This document shows positions 1-22,547 of a DNA stretch of 22,585 bases, one piece after another. Source of the stretch: a virus. Location of the stretch: positions 1-22,585 of IMG/VR virus record IMGVR_UViG_3300037427_000381; one strand, 5' to 3'. Positions within the stretch are counted from its first letter, which is position 1. Every line of letters begins with the position of its first letter. A program made the translations under genes and the position numbers. The notes under the pieces are model-generated. The model had not been told where the DNA came from, ran no database searches, and saw only the letters and a list, made by a program, of their open reading frames with translations.

Positions 1-971
1 TTGCCACCAGGTTTGTTGTTCTTCAACACTGTTCTCGGAACCGATTGATCCCTGCTCGGTTTCCATGTTGGTTGATAACCCAAGTCCTTGTAATCCCTCG
101 CTGTTGGTGTTGGGTACATCTTCTCTAGATATTCCATTGCATCTTGAAGTCTTGCTCCGTAAGTCATATGTGTTTTTTTCTTCTTCCTTAGAATAAAACC
201 GCCAGACTTTGTTCGCTCCACCCTCTCCGATTGAGGTGTATGTATGTTCGTTGCATTTGGTGTTGGATACATTTTCACTTCTTCTTGAACTGCTACTGTC
301 AACGGTGTCCCTCCTTGTTTGTACTTCTTCGTTCTCTCCGATGCTGAGTCTTGTGTTGGTGTTGGATACATCTTCACCACTTGATTGAGAGGTGGCTTCT
401 GTCCTCCTCCCGGATGTGGTTTCCGTGGTTTGTTGATCTCGTTCGAATCGAATGTTGTCGGTGTTGGAAACGATTGTTTCTTTGATCGAAGATGTTTCTC
501 CACTTGACCCATGTCTTGATAAATCTTCATAGTTTCTGGATCCACTTGTTCTCGTAGGTTTGATGGTTTCGTTCTGCCCTTTCTGTGACCCTCCATAATC
601 TTTTTCGTCCCTGCAGCGCTTCTCGGCGGCAAGTAATCCATTGTGTTGGGAGTGGCCCACAATCCAGACTCTATATCTTTGGTGCCAAGCACCGATGCCT
701 GAAGCTGGAATAAGGAAACATTGGACTTCGAAACCTTCACTTTCCAAGTTGTCTTGCACCTGTCTGAGTACCACGCCGTTTTGGAGGTTAATAAGTCCTT
801 GCACATTCTCCCCAATAACGAATTCGGGTTTGATTTCCCTAATGAGTCTAAGCATTTCTGGCCAGAGATAGCGGTTGTCGTTTGTTCCTTTTTGTTTTCC
901 TGCAACGCTGAAGGGTTGACAGGGAAATCCTCCAGTAATGACATCTGCTTCGTATTCTTTTCCTTTGACAT
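1..971 (-). CDS. Candidate overlapping gene inside the methyltransferase, +1 frame, runs off edge
   Basis: This is a second open frame on the same strand as the methyltransferase, shifted by +1. It starts at ATG 971-969, nine bases after GAGGAGG, and has no stop in 323 codons. The third frame does contain stops, for example a TAG soon after the start. The predicted protein shows TTTAISGQKC (31-40), a Trp/Lys-rich stretch (67-80), LFQL (87-90) and five aromatic-x-TP motifs: WATPNTMD (105-112), FPTPTTFD (168-175), YPTPTQDS (202-209), YPTPNATN (235-242) and YPTPTARD (286-293). It ends at the edge with KPGG. I recall this pattern, followed by KLNPxWVEWLMG, in phage and bacterial proteins annotated as methyltransferase-related or hypothetical; I could not verify that. 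No biochemical function is known to me. It may be a translated overlapping gene, or a shadow frame kept open by the composition of the main gene. Confidence 0.5.
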   Translation of the reverse strand, partial: MSKEKNTKQMSLLEDFPVNPSALQENKKEQTTTAISGQKCLDSLGKSNPNSLLGRMCKDLLTSKTAWYSDRCKTTWKVKVSKSNVSLFQLQASVLGTKDIESGLWATPNTMDYLPPRSAAGTKKIMEGHRKGRTKPSNLREQVDPETMKIYQDMGQVEKHLRSKKQSFPTPTTFDSNEINKPRKPHPGGGQKPPLNQVVKMYPTPTQDSASERTKKYKQGGTPLTVAVQEEVKMYPTPNATNIHTPQSERVERTKSGGFILRKKKKTHMTYGARLQDAMEYLEKMYPTPTARDYKDLGYQPTWKPSRDQSVPRTVLKNNKPGG

Positions 972-4405: not shown

Positions 4406-5161
4406 CTAGTAGTTTGAAGAGCCTTGTTTAGCAGGTTCTTCTGAGCTATGTTTTGCCTCGATCTCACCCTTACCTACACTTAAAGCAAAGTTTTTAGCCA
4501 TATCGTAGATACCTTTGTCTGTGACAGGACCAACTTTTTCTACATCCCAACCAAACCATGTTCCTTTGTCATTAGACATTTGAACAGTTTTTAGTTTATA
4601 AATGTGACTGTATGTAGGCGGAGTAAACAAACCGTTTTTACCCTGCATTTTTAATCCCATCATCATTGAGTTCCATTTTCTACTTACTTTAAGTTGAGTA
4701 GACTTCATAGAAATCAAAGCACTTTGAGGGGTATCACTTAGCTGCAACACAAAATGACTAGCAGTGTTATCAAGATAGTTACCATTTGGTAATCTATCCT
4801 TATACGATTTGTCCCTAGTGGTTTGACTAATTATATCACTATCTGCATCATGTATTGCTACAGGTGCACCAGTGCTTTGTCCTCGATCTTGCCACTCGAT
4901 GTACTGTCTTTTATAATGACATGGTACAACGTTGACCTCATCGAAGAGTTGATTAGTAACCGTGTTTATGATTTTGCCGGGTTCAGCGCCCTCGACATAT
5001 TTACCATCTCTTTTGTTAACCTCTGGAGATAGTTGTCCCAAAATTTTTAGGAAAGGTAACGCAAGATCTTCTTGCGCTATATTTTGAGCACCTTGATTTG
5101 CATCAGCTTCAAACAAGTTGACTGCTAATGCTCCTTCTTTTTTCTCTGTTACTTGGTTCAT
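4406..5161 (-). CDS. Conserved phage protein, possible DNA-binding/replication accessory
   Basis: I recognise this 251-residue protein as a type common in marine phages but know no proven function. Its central part carries conserved-looking blocks: DLALPFLKILGQLSPEV (32-48), a segment with NVVPCHYKRQYIEW, an NGNYLDNTASHFVLQL stretch and STQLKVSRKWNSMM near residue 160. There is no signal peptide or membrane segment, and both ends look disordered (Glu/Lys/Ser-rich tail). Its position directly before the primase and helicase, and its acidic tail, suggest a single-stranded-DNA-binding or recombination accessory role; that is inference only. An AAAAAGGA ribosome site lies ten bases upstream of the ATG, and the gap to the preceding gene is two bases. 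Confidence 0.8.
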   Translation of the reverse strand: MNQVTEKKEGALAVNLFEADANQGAQNIAQEDLALPFLKILGQLSPEVNKRDGKYVEGAEPGKIINTVTNQLFDEVNVVPCHYKRQYIEWQDRGQSTGAPVAIHDADSDIISQTTRDKSYKDRLPNGNYLDNTASHFVLQLSDTPQSALISMKSTQLKVSRKWNSMMMGLKMQGKNGLFTPPTYSHIYKLKTVQMSNDKGTWFGWDVEKVGPVTDKGIYDMAKNFALSVGKGEIEAKHSSEEPAKQGSSNY

Positions 5162-5163
5162 GT

Positions 5164-5715
5164 TTATTTGTTCCTTTTTATTGTTGTTTTATTCTCCGAA
5201 AATATTCCGAAGATTTCCGTTGGTATAGGTTTCCCTCCCTCAATACGCTCACGGACTAGCGCTTTCAAGGTCATGGGTTCTACCTTCATCTTTTGTGTCG
5301 GTTGGAACCCTTGACCCTTCGCAAGAGCAGCATAATCTGCTGCCTTGTTATCCTCGTTACGACCAAATGATACCAAGATCTCGTTCTTAATAATATCACC
5401 TAATCCATTGTCCCGAAGCCAGTTAAACGCCATCTCTTTATTTGCCTCTGTAATAGAAGCACGATATGTCGTCGAAACTTTTAAATGTGATCCATCATGC
5501 AGTTTTAATTCTGCAAGACCCATTTCAGACATCATAGTTGGAATGATGTCACCAGAAACTTTTTGTATTTCTGATTTTAAATTTTTAGTATTTTGTTCTT
5601 GTAGCTCTAATCTTTTATGTAAAGATTCTAACTTTTCAACTTGATCTGCAAGAGACTGAATATTTTCAGTTTTTTTCATTGCATCTTGTTGGTCTTCTTC
5701 AAAATTAATTGTCAT
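5164..5715 (-). CDS. Conserved phage protein with N-terminal coiled coil
   Basis: Function unknown. Residues about 15-60 form a Lys/Glu/Leu-rich segment with strong coiled-coil character. The rest is a compact domain with LAELKLHDGSHLKVSTTY, ITEANKEMAFNWLRDNGLGD, an NEILVSFGRNED stretch and VEPMTLKALVRERIEGG followed by a PTEIFGIF end. I associate this arrangement with a widespread marine phage family lying in early/replication regions. A strong ribosome site (GAGGAG, six bases before ATG) marks the start, which overlaps the previous gene's end by 11 bases. It may work with the downstream DNA-binding candidate, but nothing in the sequence demonstrates an activity. Confidence 0.82.
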   Translation of the reverse strand: MTINFEEDQQDAMKKTENIQSLADQVEKLESLHKRLELQEQNTKNLKSEIQKVSGDIIPTMMSEMGLAELKLHDGSHLKVSTTYRASITEANKEMAFNWLRDNGLGDIIKNEILVSFGRNEDNKAADYAALAKGQGFQPTQKMKVEPMTLKALVRERIEGGKPIPTEIFGIFSENKTTIKRNK

Positions 5716-6100
5716 CTATTTCTCCTCTTTCATATAAGTTTATTTCTATTGGATAGTATTTTCTTTCTTGCTTATCCCACTTTAACACATTGTATTTGCC
5801 GTGAGTAATATCAGATACAATAGAGCATGCAACACCAATGATTGCAGGATCTCCTGTAAGTAATAAATAATCTCTAGTTTTATATTCTTTAAGTCCTTGT
5901 CTCAACTTATAAATAAGTGGACCAGGAGAAAAAATCATTTGAGAAAATTCTGGTAACAAAAATTTAAACTGTCCATATTGAGACGCACCCATAATATTAA
6001 TTTTAGGATTGCCTGCTTGTGTTCCAGGAATGTGTTGAATAACATATACAGTAGATGTATAATTATTTTTTAAATTTTCATATTTCGTACTTTCTGACAT
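5705..6100 (-). CDS. Conserved phage protein of unknown function, first gene of left module
   Basis: A 131-residue soluble protein with no family I can name. Visible features are a YVIQHIPGTQAG segment, a hydrophobic IYKLRQGLKEY stretch, and LLLTGDPAIIGVACSIV, which could form a strand-turn-helix. An acidic tail follows. I prefer the ATG at 6100 (MSESTKY) over the one at 6118, because a TATAAT box on this strand lies at 6126-6121. A transcript starting about seven bases beyond it would exclude the 6118 codon. That leaves a very short leader with no clear ribosome site. It is the first gene of the leftward replication module and overlaps the next gene by 11 bases. Confidence 0.72.
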   Translation of the reverse strand: MSESTKYENLKNNYTSTVYVIQHIPGTQAGNPKINIMGASQYGQFKFLLPEFSQMIFSPGPLIYKLRQGLKEYKTRDYLLLTGDPAIIGVACSIVSDITHGKYNVLKWDKQERKYYPIEINLYERGEIDDN

Positions 6101-6128
6101 TGACAAAATATATAGCATCGATTATATA
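6100..6128 (+). promoter_or_regulatory. Sigma70-type promoter driving the SNF2 helicase pair
   Basis: TTGACA at 6100-6105 is a perfect -35 match. After a 17-base spacer comes TATATA at 6123-6128 (4 of 6 to TATAAT in register). It points rightward into the helicase gene at 6157, leaving an untranslated leader of roughly 20 bases. The -35 box overlaps the start codon of the divergent leftward gene. This suggests host RNA polymerase reads the pair as its own unit. Confidence 0.6.
6121..6126 (-). promoter_or_regulatory. Possible -10 box for the leftward replication module
   Basis: Read on the minus strand, this is a perfect TATAAT. No good -35 box lies 16-18 bases upstream, and there is no extended TG. 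It interleaves with the rightward promoter, so the two could not easily be occupied at once. Supported only by the box itself and by being the one gap between divergent genes. Confidence 0.4.
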
Positions 6129-6156
6129 GAAGTCAATACAGAAAGAAGAAAATAAA

Positions 6157-7587
6157 ATGAATTATAAATTTAAAACAAAGCCTTACGCTCATCAATTAAC
6201 TGCGTTAGAAAAATCATGGAATAAGGAAACCTATGCTTATTTTATGGAAATGGGTACAGGAAAAACAAAAGTGCTAATAGATAATTTAGCTATGCTTTAT
6301 GATAAAGGTAAAGTAGATGGTGCTTTAATTATTGCACCAAAGGGTGTTGTTAAAACTTGGTATGAACAAGAGCTGCCAACACACTTACCTAACCACATAG
6401 AATATAAAAATATTTTGTGGCAATCAAATATAACAAAAACTCAAAGAGAAAAATTAGAATCATTATTTGAAATAGGACAAGACTTACATATTTTAATTAT
6501 GAATGTAGAGTCTTTGTCTACAGATAAGGGTGTTAAATTTGCATCTAAATTTTTAAGTTCTCATAAAACTTTAATGGCCATAGATGAATCTACTACTATT
6601 AAAACACCTACAACAAAAAGAACTAAAAATATTATTAGCCTTGGTAAGCATGCTAAGTACAGACGTATTATGACAGGTTCACCTATTACAAAAAATCCTT
6701 TAGACTTGTTTAGTCAATGTGAGTTCCTTGATCCGTGGTTATTGAATTATGATTCGTTTTATGCTTTTCGTAATAGATATGCAGAGATGAAAACTATGTA
6801 TCTTCATGGTAGATCCATACAAATAGTAGATGCTTTTCAAAATTTAGGTGAACTATCCGATAAGGTAAAAGGATTTTCATATAGAGTTTTAAAAGAAGAC
6901 TGTCTAGATTTACCTCCTAAAAATTTTATCAAGAGACACGTAGCTCTTACTCCAGATCAAAAAAGAATTTATGAACAAATGAAAAAAGAAGCTATGGCTA
7001 TATTAAATGGTAAAGTGACAACTACCATGACTGTTCTTACACAGTTAATGCGCTTACATCAAATCACTTGTGGTCATTTTACTGCTGATGATGGTTCAAC
7101 ACAATCAGTTGAAAGTAATAGACTTGATGAACTTATGTCAATTCTTGAGGATATAGAAGGTAAAGCTATAATTTGGGCTAACTATCAATTAAGTGTTGGT
7201 GAGATTATACAAAGAATAATTAAAGAACACGGTAAAGATTCTTATGTTCATTATTATGGTTTAACATCTCAAGAAGATAGACAAGATAATATTCGTAAGT
7301 TTCAAAACGATCCTAAATGTAGATTTATTATAGGTACACCACAAACAGGTGGATATGGTATTACACTTACACAAGCTAATACTGTAATATATTTTTCTAA
7401 CGGATATGACTTAGAGAAAAGATTACAATCAGAAGATAGAGCCCATCGAATAGGTCAAAAGAAAACTGTAACTTATATTGATTTAATTGCAGAAGATACT
7501 GTTGATGAAAAAATAGTAGAAGCTTTACGTAAAAAAATTAACATTGCATCCGAGGTTATGGGTGAAGAACTAAAGGATTGGATATGA
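6157..7587 (+). CDS. SNF2-family DNA helicase/translocase
   Basis: A superfamily 2 ATPase of the SNF2 type, which translocates on double-stranded DNA; phage copies are probably used in replication, repair or remodelling of bound proteins. Motifs in order: a Q-motif-like YAHQLTALE (10-18), Walker A MGTGKT (32-37), motif II DEST (143-146, replacing DEAH), motif III TGSP (173-176), a motif V region with GGYGITLTQA near residue 400, and motif VI RAHRIGQ (428-434), which is very typical of SNF2 proteins. At 476 residues it is just the two RecA-like domains. It lies on the strand opposite to nearly all other genes, has its own promoter, and shares an ATGA overlap with the following gene. Confidence 0.93.
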   Translation: MNYKFKTKPYAHQLTALEKSWNKETYAYFMEMGTGKTKVLIDNLAMLYDKGKVDGALIIAPKGVVKTWYEQELPTHLPNHIEYKNILWQSNITKTQREKLESLFEIGQDLHILIMNVESLSTDKGVKFASKFLSSHKTLMAIDESTTIKTPTTKRTKNIISLGKHAKYRRIMTGSPITKNPLDLFSQCEFLDPWLLNYDSFYAFRNRYAEMKTMYLHGRSIQIVDAFQNLGELSDKVKGFSYRVLKEDCLDLPPKNFIKRHVALTPDQKRIYEQMKKEAMAILNGKVTTTMTVLTQLMRLHQITCGHFTADDGSTQSVESNRLDELMSILEDIEGKAIIWANYQLSVGEIIQRIIKEHGKDSYVHYYGLTSQEDRQDNIRKFQNDPKCRFIIGTPQTGGYGITLTQANTVIYFSNGYDLEKRLQSEDRAHRIGQKKTVTYIDLIAEDTVDEKIVEALRKKINIASEVMGEELKDWI

Positions 7588-7907: not shown

Positions 7908-8393
7908 TTAACCTACGACTTTTCCACCCTTCCATTCCATATCTGGAAGGCCTTCGGTGTATTTTTTCCCATCGAAAGTAAGAACTTGTTTTCTGTTTGC
8001 ACCTGATTCATGATAACTTATGTGAACCCATCCCCCTGCAGGATCATCCTTATCAAAAAATTCCATAATCAATTGATCAAAGTCAACGTTATTTTGCAGC
8101 CAATAAGCTGTCTTAATGTTGGGCACGCCAAATATCTCTAGGTCGACCGCTTGGCCTTTCGCATGCTGTGATGTCTTTTTGCTGCCGATTGCTTCACATA
8201 ACGCCTCACTACGGTAGCCCGATGTAATTGTGACTGGCTTGTCAAAATGTGCACGTAGTGGCTCTAAAATTTCATAACACAGATCACCTAGACTTTTAAT
8301 CTCACCAGATCCAGGCGTGTTATCTATACCCTTACGTGTGGCTGTCATACTTTTGGTCATCTCTTTAAGAGTGAAGTGTTTGGAAAGCTGCAT
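7908..8393 (-). CDS. Peptidase M15-type endolysin (L,D/D,D-carboxypeptidase fold)
   Basis: A zinc peptidase expected to cut peptidoglycan cross-links or stem peptides at the end of infection. The 161-residue protein begins MQLSKHFTLKEM, a usual opening for phage M15 enzymes. It has TSGYRSEALCEAIGS (58-71), then SQHAKGQAVDLEIF (75-88) with zinc ligands His77 and Asp84, and GGWVHISY (120-127) with the third ligand His124. There is no signal peptide, so it would need a holin to reach the wall. I chose ATG 8393 because it forms a TAATG junction with the upstream small gene; a longer frame reaching 8453 would run through that gene. It follows the virion genes, completing a holin-endolysin lysis cassette. 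Confidence 0.92.
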   Translation of the reverse strand: MQLSKHFTLKEMTKSMTATRKGIDNTPGSGEIKSLGDLCYEILEPLRAHFDKPVTITSGYRSEALCEAIGSKKTSQHAKGQAVDLEIFGVPNIKTAYWLQNNVDFDQLIMEFFDKDDPAGGWVHISYHESGANRKQVLTFDGKKYTEGLPDMEWKGGKVVG

Positions 8394-8572
8394 TATCTTG
8401 CTACGTCTGTTAGTAAAGTTATTAGGACAGCTCCCATACCTCCAACTATCCAATATTCTAATCTTTTAATTCGTTCTTGCATTTCTTTTATTTGGTCAAA
8501 TGTTTGTTTCTGCATAATTCTACATAACTTTTCATGTGATTCTATTTTTTGTAATGCAGATTTTTTAACCAT
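8393..8572 (-). CDS. Small single-span membrane protein, candidate holin
   Basis: A 59-residue protein with a Lys/Glu-rich amphipathic N-terminal half (1-39, likely helix or coiled coil) and one membrane segment around residues 40-56 (WIVGGMGAVLITLL). It ends in a short Asp-Val-Ala-Arg tail. This layout is like XhlA-type haemolysin/holin-associated phage proteins. Both ends are TAATG junctions: its ATG overlaps the stop of the 1039-residue virion gene, with GAGGT a few bases upstream, and its stop overlaps the endolysin ATG. Position next to an endolysin lacking an export signal supports a pore-forming or accessory lysis role. No homology is certain. Confidence 0.75.
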   Translation of the reverse strand: MVKKSALQKIESHEKLCRIMQKQTFDQIKEMQERIKRLEYWIVGGMGAVLITLLTDVAR

Positions 8573-17036: not shown

Positions 17037-17200
17037 TAGTTAATAAAAAAGTTAAATGCTTCAATTTCATCTTTTAATTCTTCTTGAAACGTTGAGTTTA
17101 ATTTTTCTACAATCGCATCAAGATCTCTTACTTGAGCTTCTGCAGTTTGTACATCATATTCGTTTGATGGTCGGGTTATTACCTGTACAATTTTTGCCAT
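17036..17200 (-). CDS. Small acidic helical protein (54 residues)
   Basis: A short frame exactly filling the gap between the 727- and 109-residue genes, joined to both by TAATG overlaps. It begins MAKIVQVITRPSNEYDV and continues as an acidic Glu/Gln/Leu helix with heptad-like spacing to an FNFFIN end. No family is recognised. The perfect fit to both neighbours and phage-like codon use are the support; it may be a tail assembly or chaperone-type protein, which is a guess. Confidence 0.7.
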   Translation of the reverse strand: MAKIVQVITRPSNEYDVQTAEAQVRDLDAIVEKLNSTFQEELKDEIEAFNFFIN

Positions 17201-19383
17201 TATCTTCTACCATCTGGTTGTACATCTAATCTAAAAGTTCCCAATTTCCAACTTTGATTAGTTGTTGTGTTTGCAATTTTTAATGCAATAGCTCGTGCTC
17301 TTGCACGTGTATCTACTTTTTTAGTAGATGATGAAACTGTAAATGGACCTAAAGCAGAACCAGCTTGTGTATCATTTGGATAATCTCTTAATAAAAATGT
17401 AACTTGTGTATTACCTGTTTGAGATAAAAAGTCAGGTACAAATCTTCTTATCTTCATGAGATACTCACCATCTCCTTTAAAAGTTGAAACACCAGTTGAT
17501 TGCCCTGTTGCCGTTGCTCTAGCTTGTGTAATATCATAATCTCCTGATTCAATACTTGCAACAATAGCTGTAGTTGCACCGCCTTGAACTTGGTCTGTCC
17601 CTGTTTCATGTTCATAGTATATTGTTCTACCTTCTGTGTTGCCCACTACGTCAAAAGATGTATCCGTTCCAGCTTCATAAGACAGAGCGTGTGGACTACC
17701 AAATACCGCAGAATCTTCCCACATAGTTCTAGCTAAAGATCCAACAGTCCATACAGGTCTTTGTGGTGCTGAATCAAAATAATTATACGTAACTTGTCTG
17801 TTAACAACAGATGATCCAGTTGTCGGATAAAACCAAGTAACTTCTCCAAATAAATTATTTAAACCTGCTGATACCATCTGATTACCAGATTCTAAATTTA
17901 TATTATCGTAAACAAAATCTTCTACTAAACAAGGTAGTGATTCTAGTTTACCAGCATATCTAAAGAAACCATTTTCTGACATCCAATAAGCAGCACCGTC
18001 AACTTCAACACATGCGTTTTGTCCTGCAAGTCCGCAGTTAGTTCCAACTTGTGCAAAAGCAAAAGTAAATGGTTGACCAACAAAACGTTGTGTGAATAAC
18101 GCTGTATCAGTCCAAACGTAAATTGCATCCCTACCTCTAATAGCTCCCATAATCTGTGATCCATCGGCTAGTCTTTGTGTACCTGCCGTGTTGGTTGCCG
18201 TAGGTGTATAAGTATTTATATCTTCTTGATCTGAGAATCTTACAAACATATTATCTTGTGTTGATGTGTCTCCAATAGTTGTTTCTGTTCCAAAAAATAC
18301 TAAGTGTCTATCTGGTGTAGATACTAACATGTGTCTTGATGCAGTTGGTGCACCAGATATAATACTTGCTCTAATTGTTTCTGCGTTTGATGCAGCAGAG
18401 TTCCATTCAAAAACAGCACTATCATGAATTAAACAAATAGCTTTATCACCAAAGTTATCAAGTGACCACATCCCTGGTTCAAGGACCAAGTCTCCTGATG
18501 CAGCTTCACCCCATGCTACAAAGTTTGTTGTGCTTGTAACTGTAGCACCTCCACTATGTGCAGCTTTTGTTGTACCTCTGACTTCTCTAGTTACACCTGT
18601 AAGTTCATTACCAGTTATCCCTGTATATGAAATCTCTTCACTATCTATTTTTACAAAGTTTGTACCCGCGTCTGGAAATTGAGACACATCATTCAATATA
18701 ATTCCTGTTGTAACAGTATCATTGATACCATTAGTTAATGTAGTTGTAGGTTCTCCCGCTACTTCACCACCCCATGATCCAAGTGACCAACCAAAACCTT
18801 GAGCTTGTACAGCAGGGCCTACTGGATAGTAATGTTGTACTCTAATACCACCAGATGTTGTTGCACCAGATCCAGATTCATTAGATGTCATTGTAATAGT
18901 AATTGTTGTACTTGACGGTACAGTTGTTACCATAAATTTTTTATCATCAAAATCAGCAGCTGAATAATTAGAATTAGTTATTGTACTAAAATTATCTAAT
19001 AAAATTATATCTTGCGCTGCTATATTATGTGGAGAACTAAATGTTATTGTAACTATAGGAGATCCATTAGTTGTACTAAATGCACTTGTAAGCGTTGTTG
19101 TAGATTTGATAGGATGTATGTCATAAAATACACCACCTGAATATGCATATAAAATTCTGTTTGTACCAATGATTGCGTATTTTCTAGCTTTACTATTTAC
19201 AAAGTGATGAAGTCCCCTACCTGCTCCAGTGAGAGCATCATCTCCCAACTGTTTCCAACCACCTATTTTTTCTGGTGTACCATATCTAAAACGAACATTA
19301 TCACAATCAACCCATTGCCCTTCAGCTCCTGTGGGTGTTAGTTGTTTATTAATACCTGGTTGAAACCCTATCTTTTGTAACAT
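17200..19383 (-). CDS. Large tail/neck structural protein, possibly P22 gp10-like
   Basis: A 727-residue beta-rich protein. The opening (MLQKIGFQPGINKQLTPTGA, then GQWVDCDNVRFRYGTPEKIGGW at 22-43) is one I associate with phage neck or stabilisation proteins of the P22 gp10 type, which plug the portal and attach the tail. Residues about 213-286 look like an inserted beta module: SQFPDAG, then KIDSEEISYTG, LTGVTREVRGT and AAHSGGATV, a signature seen in several tail proteins. A Thr/Ser-rich part (94-180) may be another insertion. The ribosome site GAGG is five bases before ATG. It follows four oxygenase genes and heads the virion gene string visible here. Confidence 0.75.
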   Translation of the reverse strand: MLQKIGFQPGINKQLTPTGAEGQWVDCDNVRFRYGTPEKIGGWKQLGDDALTGAGRGLHHFVNSKARKYAIIGTNRILYAYSGGVFYDIHPIKSTTTLTSAFSTTNGSPIVTITFSSPHNIAAQDIILLDNFSTITNSNYSAADFDDKKFMVTTVPSSTTITITMTSNESGSGATTSGGIRVQHYYPVGPAVQAQGFGWSLGSWGGEVAGEPTTTLTNGINDTVTTGIILNDVSQFPDAGTNFVKIDSEEISYTGITGNELTGVTREVRGTTKAAHSGGATVTSTTNFVAWGEAASGDLVLEPGMWSLDNFGDKAICLIHDSAVFEWNSAASNAETIRASIISGAPTASRHMLVSTPDRHLVFFGTETTIGDTSTQDNMFVRFSDQEDINTYTPTATNTAGTQRLADGSQIMGAIRGRDAIYVWTDTALFTQRFVGQPFTFAFAQVGTNCGLAGQNACVEVDGAAYWMSENGFFRYAGKLESLPCLVEDFVYDNINLESGNQMVSAGLNNLFGEVTWFYPTTGSSVVNRQVTYNYFDSAPQRPVWTVGSLARTMWEDSAVFGSPHALSYEAGTDTSFDVVGNTEGRTIYYEHETGTDQVQGGATTAIVASIESGDYDITQARATATGQSTGVSTFKGDGEYLMKIRRFVPDFLSQTGNTQVTFLLRDYPNDTQAGSALGPFTVSSSTKKVDTRARARAIALKIANTTTNQSWKLGTFRLDVQPDGRR

Positions 19384-19400
19384 ATAACCTCATTATAATA

Positions 19401-20069
19401 CTATTTTACAAATGATGGTAGACCCAACATAGGTCTTCCGTCAAATCTGTTTTTATCAGCAAATGGGCCATTTACATGATTATAATGTAGAAATACTTGA
19501 CCGCAAATGTTCCCGTCAAAAGGCTCTCGCCAATGTTCAAGTTCACATCCACTATATACTAGCATATCTCCTACTTCAAGCAAGAGTTTTACACCCTTGT
19601 CGTTAGTAGGTTCATATTTTTGTACTCTATGTTGTCCTGTTTCTGGACCATATGTATATCCTGCATTTGGATTAGGGTTAATAAATATAGGCCATGGATC
19701 ACCACCTAAATTAATGGTTGTAGATATTTCACACGATGGTCTGTCTTTATGTCTATGTAATATGTCTCCTTGTTTATATAATCTTGCATAGGAATAAGTT
19801 GGAATTAAATTCAATTCTGTTTCTTTTTGCATTATTGGTAATACTTTAACAAGTAAAGTTTCCATTACAGGATCTGCATAATGTGAGTATGTATTTGGAA
19901 TTTGTTGATCTGTCCACGTTCCCAACATATCATTATCATGAGTAATGTTGTTTTCGTACATCCATTTGACTGCATCTCGTTTAAGCATAAAATAATTAAA
20001 CACAAAGTTAGCTAGCTCATAACTAAGTGCTTTTTTTATTATTTGATATTTTTTTTGATTAAAATCCAT
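19401..20069 (-). CDS. 2-oxoglutarate/Fe(II) oxygenase, HxD type
   Basis: A double-stranded beta-helix dioxygenase that would hydroxylate an unknown substrate using Fe(II), oxygen and 2-oxoglutarate. The 222-residue protein has an iron-binding HxD in HRHKDRPSCEIS (105-116; His107, Asp109). The distal histidine is in SGCELEHWREPF (173-184; His179), preceded by GDMLVY (167-172). An Asn/Gly/Pro-rich loop lies between (121-160). It overlaps the upstream oxygenase gene by 11 bases and lacks a good ribosome site. I cannot tell whether it modifies virion protein, host protein or a small molecule. Confidence 0.88.
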   Translation of the reverse strand: MDFNQKKYQIIKKALSYELANFVFNYFMLKRDAVKWMYENNITHDNDMLGTWTDQQIPNTYSHYADPVMETLLVKVLPIMQKETELNLIPTYSYARLYKQGDILHRHKDRPSCEISTTINLGGDPWPIFINPNPNAGYTYGPETGQHRVQKYEPTNDKGVKLLLEVGDMLVYSGCELEHWREPFDGNICGQVFLHYNHVNGPFADKNRFDGRPMLGLPSFVK

Positions 20070-20637
20070 CTTGTATAAAATTAAAACTTACCGATATTCT
20101 TATATCATTTGATTCATTAGGTTCAACACTATGCCATAGCCATGAAGGAAACATAATTATTCTACCAACTTTAGGTTCTATGTTTACTTCTCGCCATAAA
20201 TGTGAGGGAGGTTTACCTCCTTTTTTAGTGGGCATGTTAAGTTGAACTCCGGGTCTTGGATCATTAAAAGTTATTTTACCACAATTAGGTTGTGCTTTAA
20301 TATAATATACACCACTAAATAAACTATTAGGATGTATATGGGGTTTATTATATCCACCAGAATAATTTATGTTAGCCCACATGTTACCTAATTTTGGTTG
20401 TCTATCTAACCGTTCTTCTTCGTATATTTGATGTTGCATTTTAAATAATTCATCTACTAAAGGTTTAAACACGGGTATGTTAAACATGTTAGTTTGACTG
20501 TGCCAACCTTTAACATTTGTTTTTTTAACTCCTTTATCTTTTTTAGACCATTCAATAATTTCTTGCTCAAAAAGTTTATTATCTAGTTGAACATCTTCAG
20601 CATGTATAAGCGTTGGAAAGAATCCTTCTGTTATCAT
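20059..20637 (-). CDS. 2-oxoglutarate/Fe(II) oxygenase-like, HxH variant (TIGR02466-like)
   Basis: A 192-residue protein of the putative 2OG-oxygenase family I know as TIGR02466. The metal site reads KPHIHPNSLFSGVYYI (98-113), with His100 and His102 where classic enzymes have His-x-Asp. The distal part MFPSWLWHSVEP (162-173) supplies His169, and Arg180 in RISVSFNF is the likely 2-oxoglutarate anchor. Family members commonly have this HPNS-SGVYY pattern, so it is not a broken enzyme, though catalysis is less certain. Its ATG overlaps the previous gene's stop as ATGA, with GGAGGT 11 bases upstream. Substrate unknown. Confidence 0.85.
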   Translation of the reverse strand: MITEGFFPTLIHAEDVQLDNKLFEQEIIEWSKKDKGVKKTNVKGWHSQTNMFNIPVFKPLVDELFKMQHQIYEEERLDRQPKLGNMWANINYSGGYNKPHIHPNSLFSGVYYIKAQPNCGKITFNDPRPGVQLNMPTKKGGKPPSHLWREVNIEPKVGRIIMFPSWLWHSVEPNESNDIRISVSFNFIQDGF

Positions 20638-21224
20638 CTAAATGGTTTACCTCCAAACCAAACTACTAAAGATTGTCGAACACCACGAATTACTTTGTTA
20701 ACTCTGTGATTTAAAAATGATGCAAATATAATCGCATGACCTTGTTTAAGTTTTGCAAATTTACCTGGTGCCATTAATTCTAAATCACCGCCTTCAAATT
20801 CGGATGGATCATTTAACAAAAGAGTCATTGATATTTTTCTAACAGGTGGTTCATCTTCCATATTTATATTACAATCCATATGCCAATCATAGAAACCTCC
20901 TTCTGGATATTCTGTAAATTGTGCTTGTTCTGTAACTCTAATATCATTAAATCCAAAATGATTTTCATTTGTTCTTTGTATAAAAGCGTTTAAGTCTTGA
21001 TACATGTGAGACATTTCTTTAACAGGTATCCACGATATAGTAGTTACTCTTTTATTCGTATCACTTTTACCTTCTTTAAAAGAACCAATCTGTCCTGGTT
21101 GTGGTGGTTGTTTTCTTCCACACTCTATAATCTGTCTACATTGATCAGGTGTAAATAATGGTGTGGTTGTTTGAACTATCCAACTTTTCCATTTAGGTTC
21201 TGTTATTATTTTATTTTCGTACAT
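20634..21224 (-). CDS. Prolyl 4-hydroxylase/PKHD-type 2-oxoglutarate oxygenase
   Basis: A 196-residue dioxygenase close to the PKHD/prolyl-4-hydroxylase group. The sequence shows YDWHMDCN (112-119; His115 and Asp117 bind iron), MTLLLNDPSEFEGGDLEL (133-150), which is typical of this group, then FASFLNHRVNKVIRG (167-181; His173) and RQSLVVWFGG (183-192; Arg183 as likely 2-oxoglutarate ligand). All ligands are present, so it should be active. Members often hydroxylate proline in proteins; the phage target is unknown. A strong GAGGAG ribosome site and a TAATG junction link it to the upstream oxygenase. Confidence 0.9.
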   Translation of the reverse strand: MYENKIITEPKWKSWIVQTTTPLFTPDQCRQIIECGRKQPPQPGQIGSFKEGKSDTNKRVTTISWIPVKEMSHMYQDLNAFIQRTNENHFGFNDIRVTEQAQFTEYPEGGFYDWHMDCNINMEDEPPVRKISMTLLLNDPSEFEGGDLELMAPGKFAKLKQGHAIIFASFLNHRVNKVIRGVRQSLVVWFGGKPFR

Positions 21225-21892
21225 TAACTTACTCCTCTGTTTTTAATTGGGTCATATTGAACATCCATATTTGCAGCTAGTGTTCGTCTATATCCTGGTC
21301 CATTAAACGGATAAACACAATGTCTCATGTCATAGGGAAATATAAAAAAGTCTCCTTCTTTAATATCGGGTTGATAATCTACATTTGCAAAATGTCCATT
21401 AGTTGAACCTAGTATTTGTAGTTTACCGTTTTGTGGTTGATCAGCTGCAGAATATTCTACACCATAAGACTCGGGTAATTTTAAAATCATAACAGAAGAT
21501 AGACCTGTAAACAATGATCCTTGGTGAACGTGCACTGGATTGTATTCATTTTCAAACATTTGATTAACCCATATAGAATTAAAATGTAAATTATATTCTT
21601 TAGTTTTATTCCAATCTAAATAATGCTTAAACTTTGATTCAAACCATCCTAATACATCCCTAGGTAAATGATTATGTTTAGTCATTTTAGGACTATCTTC
21701 ACCATTAAAAAATAAACTATGTTCTTTTTCAATTTTACCAACTAATTGGTGATTAGCGGGTTTTAATTCAGGATACTTAGTTTCATAGATTTGATTTATA
21801 GTATTATATATATCAAGAGGCACTTGATATTTTAATACTGATTGACCTAAAAATATAAATTTAAAATTATTTTGGTTTTGATCCGAGGTCAT
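21224..21892 (-). CDS. 2-oxoglutarate/Fe(II) oxygenase-like, HxH variant
   Basis: A 222-residue protein related in layout to the second oxygenase: NPVHVHQGSLFTGLSSVMIL (118-137; His121 and His123), then GDFFIFPYDMRHCVYPF (180-196; His191) and RRTLAANMDV (202-211; an Arg as likely 2-oxoglutarate ligand). It also carries an HxH where an HxD is standard. N-terminal residues 1-100 are family-specific and unassigned. Its start overlaps the preceding gene by 26 bases without a clear ribosome site. It heads a set of four consecutive oxygenase genes, so a multi-step or multi-target modification is possible. Confidence 0.82.
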   Translation of the reverse strand: MTSDQNQNNFKFIFLGQSVLKYQVPLDIYNTINQIYETKYPELKPANHQLVGKIEKEHSLFFNGEDSPKMTKHNHLPRDVLGWFESKFKHYLDWNKTKEYNLHFNSIWVNQMFENEYNPVHVHQGSLFTGLSSVMILKLPESYGVEYSAADQPQNGKLQILGSTNGHFANVDYQPDIKEGDFFIFPYDMRHCVYPFNGPGYRRTLAANMDVQYDPIKNRGVS

Positions 21893-22547
21893 TGGTCAAT
21901 TGTTCTTTCTTGTTGTAAATCATTTCACCTGATTTTTTAACTCTTTCTATAGTTTGTAATTGTCCAAGTACATTAAACACTTCTGGTTGTGATGAACCTG
22001 ATGTTAATGTTTCTGCTTTGTTTTTCATAATCAAATGATAAGAATCTAATTGGTGTCTGTTAACATCTTTTGTATTAAACGATCCATCATCAAATTCTTT
22101 TTTTAATGTAGACCACAATTTAATTTCTCTCATTCTATCTCTAGCAACTAACTGCATATTAGCCAAACCATATCTAGCTTCATCTAAATCTATTTTATAT
22201 TTTTCTAATTTATATTCATCAGTTTCAGTTTCTACTTTTTTCTCTAACCATTTAACTTTAGCTTCTGATCTTCTGCACTCAAATGATAAACTCATTAAGT
22301 TTTCTAAAAATACGTTTTGTTCTCTGACACACTGCCAATACTTAGAAGCTTTTGTTGGATACTTTGCATCCTGTAACACAGACATTCTCATTTCTGTCTC
22401 TGTTCTAAATACTTGTTTCTTAGTCCAAGTGTCACGAAGCTCGGCTGTCATAGCCTTAAACTCTTTTACGTCCTCTGGATCTAATAAATTATTTAAACTT
22501 GGTGCTTCTTTTTCTATTAGTGCATGTATATTTCTTTTCTCTGTCAT
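21867..22547 (-). CDS. Conserved phage protein of unknown function, helical
   Basis: A 226-residue, highly charged protein. Residues about 75-150 are predicted to form long helices or a coiled coil (segments such as SFECRRSEAKVKWLEKKVE, then DLDEARYGLANMQLVARDRM). No signal peptide or enzyme motif is seen. I recall similar proteins near the structural genes of marine phages without an assigned role. An AAAGGA ribosome site lies seven bases before ATG, marking a probable fresh start of translation. A packaging-scaffold or assembly role would fit a helical charged protein there, but nothing proves it. Confidence 0.75.
   Translation of the reverse strand: MTEKRNIHALIEKEAPSLNNLLDPEDVKEFKAMTAELRDTWTKKQVFRTETEMRMSVLQDAKYPTKASKYWQCVREQNVFLENLMSLSFECRRSEAKVKWLEKKVETETDEYKLEKYKIDLDEARYGLANMQLVARDRMREIKLWSTLKKEFDDGSFNTKDVNRHQLDSYHLIMKNKAETLTSGSSQPEVFNVLGQLQTIERVKKSGEMIYNKKEQLTNDLGSKPK

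Follow-up and report, generated by a model that had tools for sequence, protein, structure and literature searches.

A cassette of four oxygenase-type genes beside virion genes in a pelagiphage-related virus, with a probable oxygenase-like nature of its 'ferrochelatase' member

The window analysed here, that is, the whole stretch of DNA studied, is a virus contig of 22,585 bases from IMG/VR. It carries four adjacent genes, designated A, B, C and D, all located on the minus strand, arranged head-to-tail and chained by overlaps of 1 base (A/B), 4 bases (B/C) and 11 bases (C/D). They are preceded by gene U, overlapping A by 26 bases, and followed, after a gap of 17 bases, by gene T (Table 1). The open reading frames of the chained genes were found where a preliminary description of this DNA had placed them, and its division of the four into two with an HxD...H motif (B and D) and two with HxH...H (A and C) was borne out as well. 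Its mention of tail genes downstream has to be corrected, as T belongs to a family labelled head and packaging.

Table 1. Genes of the oxygenase cassette and its immediate neighbours, in the order of transcription (positions are those of the window)
Gene	Length, aa	Position	Strand	Family assignment	Conserved site or remark
U	226	21867-22547	-	no family match (Pfam, PHROGs)	order kept in relatives
A	222	21224-21892	-	PF13759 (2OG-FeII_Oxy_5), phrog_81	H121xH123...H191, R202/R203
B	196	20634-21224	-	PF13640 (2OG-FeII_Oxy_3), PKHD/prolyl-hydroxylase-like	H115xD117...H173, R183
C	192	20059-20637	-	TIGR02466/PF13759 oxygenase	H100xH102...H169, R180
D	222	19401-20069	-	phrog_2954 'ferrochelatase'	H107xD109R...H179WR, invariant R96 and Q191
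T	727	17200-19383	-	phrog_3287 (5e-98), virion structural protein, head and packaging	

The phage is uncultured, podovirus-like and related to the pelagiphages HTVC023P and HTVC033P. Its closest annotated relatives, as judged by gene D, are HTVC033P, HTVC023P and 023Pt_psg01, and SAR11 is therefore the probable host. Near similarity to a phage record at the DNA level is confined, within the window, to an M15 peptidase gene (7908-8453), which shares 83.6% identity with 023Pt_psg01 across 473 bases; a recent exchange of this gene is suggested by this. Elsewhere, positions 4406-7587 hold three genes with matches to the gp34/gp33/gp32 families of Pam3 beside an SNF2-type helicase gene on the opposite strand.

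Genes A, B and C encode oxygenases of the Fe(II)/2-oxoglutarate (2OG) type. With the Pfam cut-off of 27 bits, A matches PF13759 (E 2.3e-9, 38 bits), B matches PF13640 (E 5e-14, 53.5 bits), and C matches PF13759 (E 2.3e-29, 102 bits). As to the NCBIfam models, C is a member of TIGR02466 (E 7.8e-39, 133.6 bits, above the curated cut-off of 62.5), and A, with only 22.8 bits against the same cut-off, is not. The best of the PKHD-type YbiX/PiuC equivalog models for B, NF003974, gives 62.1 bits against a cut-off of at least 143, so B is PKHD-like and no PiuC/YbiX equivalog. The metal site of B is canonical and is followed by the 2OG-binding Arg183. A and C carry HxH in place of HxD, as 3BVC does, together with the downstream Arg203 and Arg180, respectively, and the second His has a putative metal-binding role. 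A loss of metal ligands in most homologues, which the preliminary description had named as grounds for refutation, was not observed: the ligands are invariant or nearly so in all four genes.

The AlphaFold model of A (pLDDT 82.9) matches the 2OG-oxygenase fold. Prolyl hydroxylases are found among its Foldseek matches, the top one being the P4H of Pseudomonas putida (4j25); VIA-align places AlkB, 3bvc, 2rg4 and P4H at Z 13-14, AlkB and PHD2 being tied with P4H. The sequence relatives of C in the PDB are 3bvc/2rg4, and those of B are 3dkq, PKHD hydroxylases/PiuC, the viral vCPH and algal P4H. A double-stranded beta-helix is thus predicted for A by its model and for B and C by homology to solved structures; the earlier expectation of such a helix in all four proteins stood at the level of models for A only, the model of D (pLDDT 42) speaking neither for nor against it.

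These structural matches bear on two alternative readings of the cassette. One is that host proteins, e.g. translation factors, are hydroxylated for takeover of the cell, as P. putida P4H does with EF-Tu; the top place of this enzyme and the P4H-EF-Tu complex (4iw3) are in line with it. However, the fold is common to many 2OG enzymes of differing substrates, AlkB and PHD2 score equally, and a late place among virion genes should be unusual for takeover genes, so we consider the action on host proteins quite unlikely. The other reading is an oxidation of phage DNA bases in the manner of phage TET enzymes, for instance of 5-methylcytosine produced by the C5-cytosine DNA methylase that is encoded at positions 1-1143 of the window (minus strand; PF00145, 5e-53), and the high rank of AlkB-type DNA repair enzymes in the structural comparison of A could speak for it. 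Since these matches tie with prolyl hydroxylases, the methylase lies 18 kb away, and none of A-D matches Tet_JBP (PF12851, Pfam) at E up to 1, DNA oxidation seems to us very unlikely. The methylase gene is almost fully overlapped by a second frame (3-971, minus strand, 323 aa) with repeated MYPTPT motifs and no Pfam family; this stretch has an unusually high GC content, and the two frames are possibly a case of dual coding.

A scan of viral contigs revealed at least 600 relatives, the best 80 of which were made into loci, a sample biased to close relatives. All 59 of these loci whose sequence extends by more than 2.2 kb beyond D on the upstream side keep the order A-B-C-D, with optional extra genes in between. 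In 77 of the 80 the gene after D is T, and U is the conserved first gene ahead of the cassette in this lineage. The median dN/dS values against relatives are 0.25 for A, 0.20 for B, 0.29 for C and 0.17 for D, and all four genes are therefore under purifying selection. In the tree, whose branches are long and many of whose forks are open, A and C fall into separate clades, A grouping with HTVC008M gp36. A recent origin of the two by tandem duplication was rejected on this basis, in agreement with the initial remark that the four genes are too divergent for a simple recent duplication; A and C are either old paralogues or separate acquisitions. Some relatives harbor small ParB_N-like open reading frames of 102-138 aa at varying points of the cassette (L015:4695-5018, L019:4915-5223, L044:1556-1972).

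Gene D gave no significant match in Pfam, and its sole strong match was phrog_2954 'ferrochelatase' (8e-48) in PHROGs. Among 49 non-redundant homologues of D twelve residues are 100% conserved (R96, Y98, H107, D109, R110, W126, H179, W180, R181, Q191, F193 and Y196), which include the triad H107, D109 and H179 and make the signature HxDR...HWR invariant. PF00762 was absent from all 8 D-bearing phage records, control genomes being positive in 8 cases out of 14; D is, besides, short and carries the invariant HxD...H, and it is probably no ferrochelatase. The earlier proposals for such genes were of a metabolic kind: a role related to 2OG/NtcA and succinate (PMC3037559), co-location with ferrochelatase and iron regulation (PMC9599517), and PiuC-type iron uptake (PMC13184970). 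In this case D would be a true heme ferrochelatase, or the set as a whole would draw down 2OG or aid iron handling. The absence of PF00762 and the features of D just described stand against such a role, mere 2OG consumption should not need four diverged oxygenases, and we regard it as highly improbable.

The D profile aligns to that of B over about 140 columns, with HxD on HxD and the distal H on H. The probability of this profile match is 85% against a maximum of 1.4% for shuffled columns (48% against 4.0% with a deeper set), and unrelated profiles used as a control gave 0.1-0.2%. A match of D to the C profile at 99.5% was rejected, as shuffled D columns equalled it and an unrelated sulfotransferase profile reached 99.3% against C. 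Sequence searches of the PDB with D and its relatives found nothing. The D half of the fused protein of cyanophage ACG-2014f gave a weak match, below the cut-off, to the oxygenase model PF13532 (E 0.0015), and the D homologues of S-CREM1, Sf-FP1 and 023Pt_psg01 are already annotated as oxygenases. D lacks the C-terminal 2OG-binding Arg/Lys, the invariant Gln191 standing at about the position of the Arg of A-C, and is therefore called here oxygenase-like and not a confirmed 2OG oxygenase. Taken together, the invariant signature, the profile match to B, the fusions described below and the lack of PF00762 make it probable that D is oxygenase-like and a partner of B-type enzymes. It may bind 2OG by another route, e.g. 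through the invariant Arg96, whose spacing would match that of an AlkB residue in contact with 2OG; alternatively, its part may be that of a non-canonical or regulatory partner. If D is no ferrochelatase, the claims on ferrochelatase partners in pelagiphages (PMC9599517) and the seasonal enrichment of 'ferrochelatase' (PMC11561400, phrog2954) need to be re-read, and the probable re-annotation of PHROG 2954/3531 touches the studies that count these families as ferrochelatases (PMC11561400).

A partnership of D with B-type enzymes is suggested by gene fusions: D and a B-type domain form one polypeptide in ACG-2014f (gp210) and four IMG/VR contigs akin to it, in S-SCSM1 (gp124) and in S-SCSM2R (S-SCSM2R_301). 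A wider set of 145 loci was collected with four divergent D queries and supplemented with annotated records of phages and genomes. In 114 of its 118 loci with more than 1.8 kb upstream, D is either fused to a B-type gene, adjacent to one or in the same run with one; the B-type profile is broad, and this association thus concerns PF13640-type enzymes and no single orthologue. Since D and B-type domains are fused in some cyanophages, the two proteins perhaps form a heterodimer, and the fusion provides a single protein suited to expression and assay. In two contigs of this set, L129 and L131, profile searches point to ten consecutive oxygenase-like genes, well above the four of the window. Other PHROG names in oxygenase cassettes also seem mistaken: PF13640 is matched above its cut-off (32.9 against 27) by a member of phrog_274 'DNA endonuclease V', and members of phrog_1644, called 'minor coat protein', are DUF6445 proteins with weak 2OG-oxygenase hits (L005:6550-7035, L005:4215-4703, L005:5434-6138, L053:1093-1692).

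One more recurrent component is a sulfotransferase of PF13469 (ST), located in or beside the cassettes of differing lineages (L012:663-1457, L199-L210, L183-L187) in such gene orders as U-ST-A-B-C-D, B-ST-D-B, B-D-AC-ST and others. Together with glycosyltransferases, it could indicate that the oxygenases act on a glycan, either of the host surface or phage-directed, on a lipid or on a small metabolite, e.g. for a receptor change or a superinfection block. Three glycosyltransferases are encoded straight after the D-B fusion gene of S-SCSM2R, and lipids, sugars and metabolites are substrates of many enzymes in the 2OG oxygenase superfamily. However, none of A-D matches a lipid- or sugar-acting oxygenase family in Pfam, the lineage of the window has virion genes as neighbours, and no glycosyltransferase turned up in the cassettes examined; on balance we hold such tailoring to be unlikely, though the likeliest of the alternatives.

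In longer relatives the gene order is as follows: tail-fibre genes, Kelch-like Gly-rich proteins, U, the cassette and T. The Gly-rich proteins belong to phrog_27227 (function not assigned) and contain repeated NGSSWT-type Kelch-like motifs (L009:3184-4152 and 4514-5464; L034:2240-4087). The open reading frame next to U on its upstream side encodes a Kelch-like protein in 31 of 33 loci, as judged by motif count in 22 and by reading the N-terminus by eye in the rest. Their repeats and position make them likely adhesins or receptor-binding proteins. The window itself stops at U, short of any adhesin gene, and the adhesin-side place of the cassette is known from the relatives. In other phages, D cassettes are found close to a gene for a tail fibre in Mosig, to one for a short tail fibre in S-SCSM1 and to head-tail genes in Sf-FP1 and HTVC008M, the cassette of HTVC008M being on the strand opposite to the structural genes. 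The location on the side of a Kelch-like adhesin suits the idea of a virion-protein substrate. In T4-like phages such a neighbourhood of virion genes is also a general insertion hot-spot, and a place beside virion genes is no proof of the substrate. A search for collagen-like GXY substrates revealed none of any length, only short Gly-rich runs.

Our tentative preference, held at somewhat less than even odds, is that the cassette hydroxylates residues of virion proteins, above all of the Kelch-like tail adhesin. In this case the oxygenases would be produced alongside the late virion proteins, B-type and D proteins would act as a pair, and the virion substrate, most plausibly the adhesin encoded upstream, would be hydroxylated; where a sulfotransferase is present, as in many relatives, it might then sulfate the resulting hydroxyl on the same substrate. 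A broader generalization, which we consider rather doubtful, is that PHROG 2954/3531 form a distinct oxygenase-like family, characterized by HxDR...HWR and by a Gln where the 2OG-binding Arg would stand, that together with a PKHD-type enzyme makes a two-enzyme module and, with the sulfotransferase, places hydroxyl or sulfate groups on adhesins. In the literature searched we found neither a demonstrated substrate for any marine phage 2OG oxygenase nor a report of hydroxylated phage virion proteins.

As for the known enzymes, the sequence relatives of B and C and the structural relatives of A, which comprise 3BVC/2RG4, the PKHD/PiuC hydroxylases, vCPH of PBCV-1 and P. putida P4H, agree with them in the metal-site pattern of the aligned residues; 3BVC and 2RG4 are deposited as uncharacterised, and A and B stay below the NCBIfam cut-offs for named subfamilies. 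Phage 2OG oxygenases structurally similar to the human prolyl hydroxylase EGLN3 have also been described (PMC12774648).

As for the known phages, accessory genes for 2OG oxygenases are frequent in those of marine origin, and a run of four is not special to this one: runs are longer in HTVC008M (five) and S-CREM1 (six), and clusters of 2OG oxygenase and 'ferrochelatase' genes in pelagiphages were published in 2022, the oxygenase always neighbouring the 'ferrochelatase' (PMC9599517). In cyanomyoviruses, multiple 2OG oxygenases are listed together with a 'Hyp. with ferrochetalase domain' (PMC3037559). The HTVC023P-type clusters and HTVC008M gp72-gp68 consist of the same families as the cassette of the window (PF13759 types enclosed by B and D types) and share with it the B...D order, the overlapping genes and the position of D at or near the end; in contrast to them, the lineage of the window has A in front and its own clade of C. 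In the cyanophages S-CREM1 (SCREM1_75-80) and Sf-FP1 a D homologue ends the oxygenase run, as in the window, but the gene content of the runs differs; unlike the cyanophage fusions, B and D of the window are separate genes with C between them. While PMC9599517 treats D as a ferrochelatase partner, D is read here as oxygenase-like. In general, the cassette is of a kind known in marine phages, and what is new is the D-B fusion and the probable oxygenase-like nature of D, to which are added the recurrent sulfotransferase and, in relatives, the location of the cassette with Kelch-like adhesin/tail-fibre genes on one side and a virion gene on the other. This adhesin-side location names a first candidate substrate in cultured phages with related cassettes.
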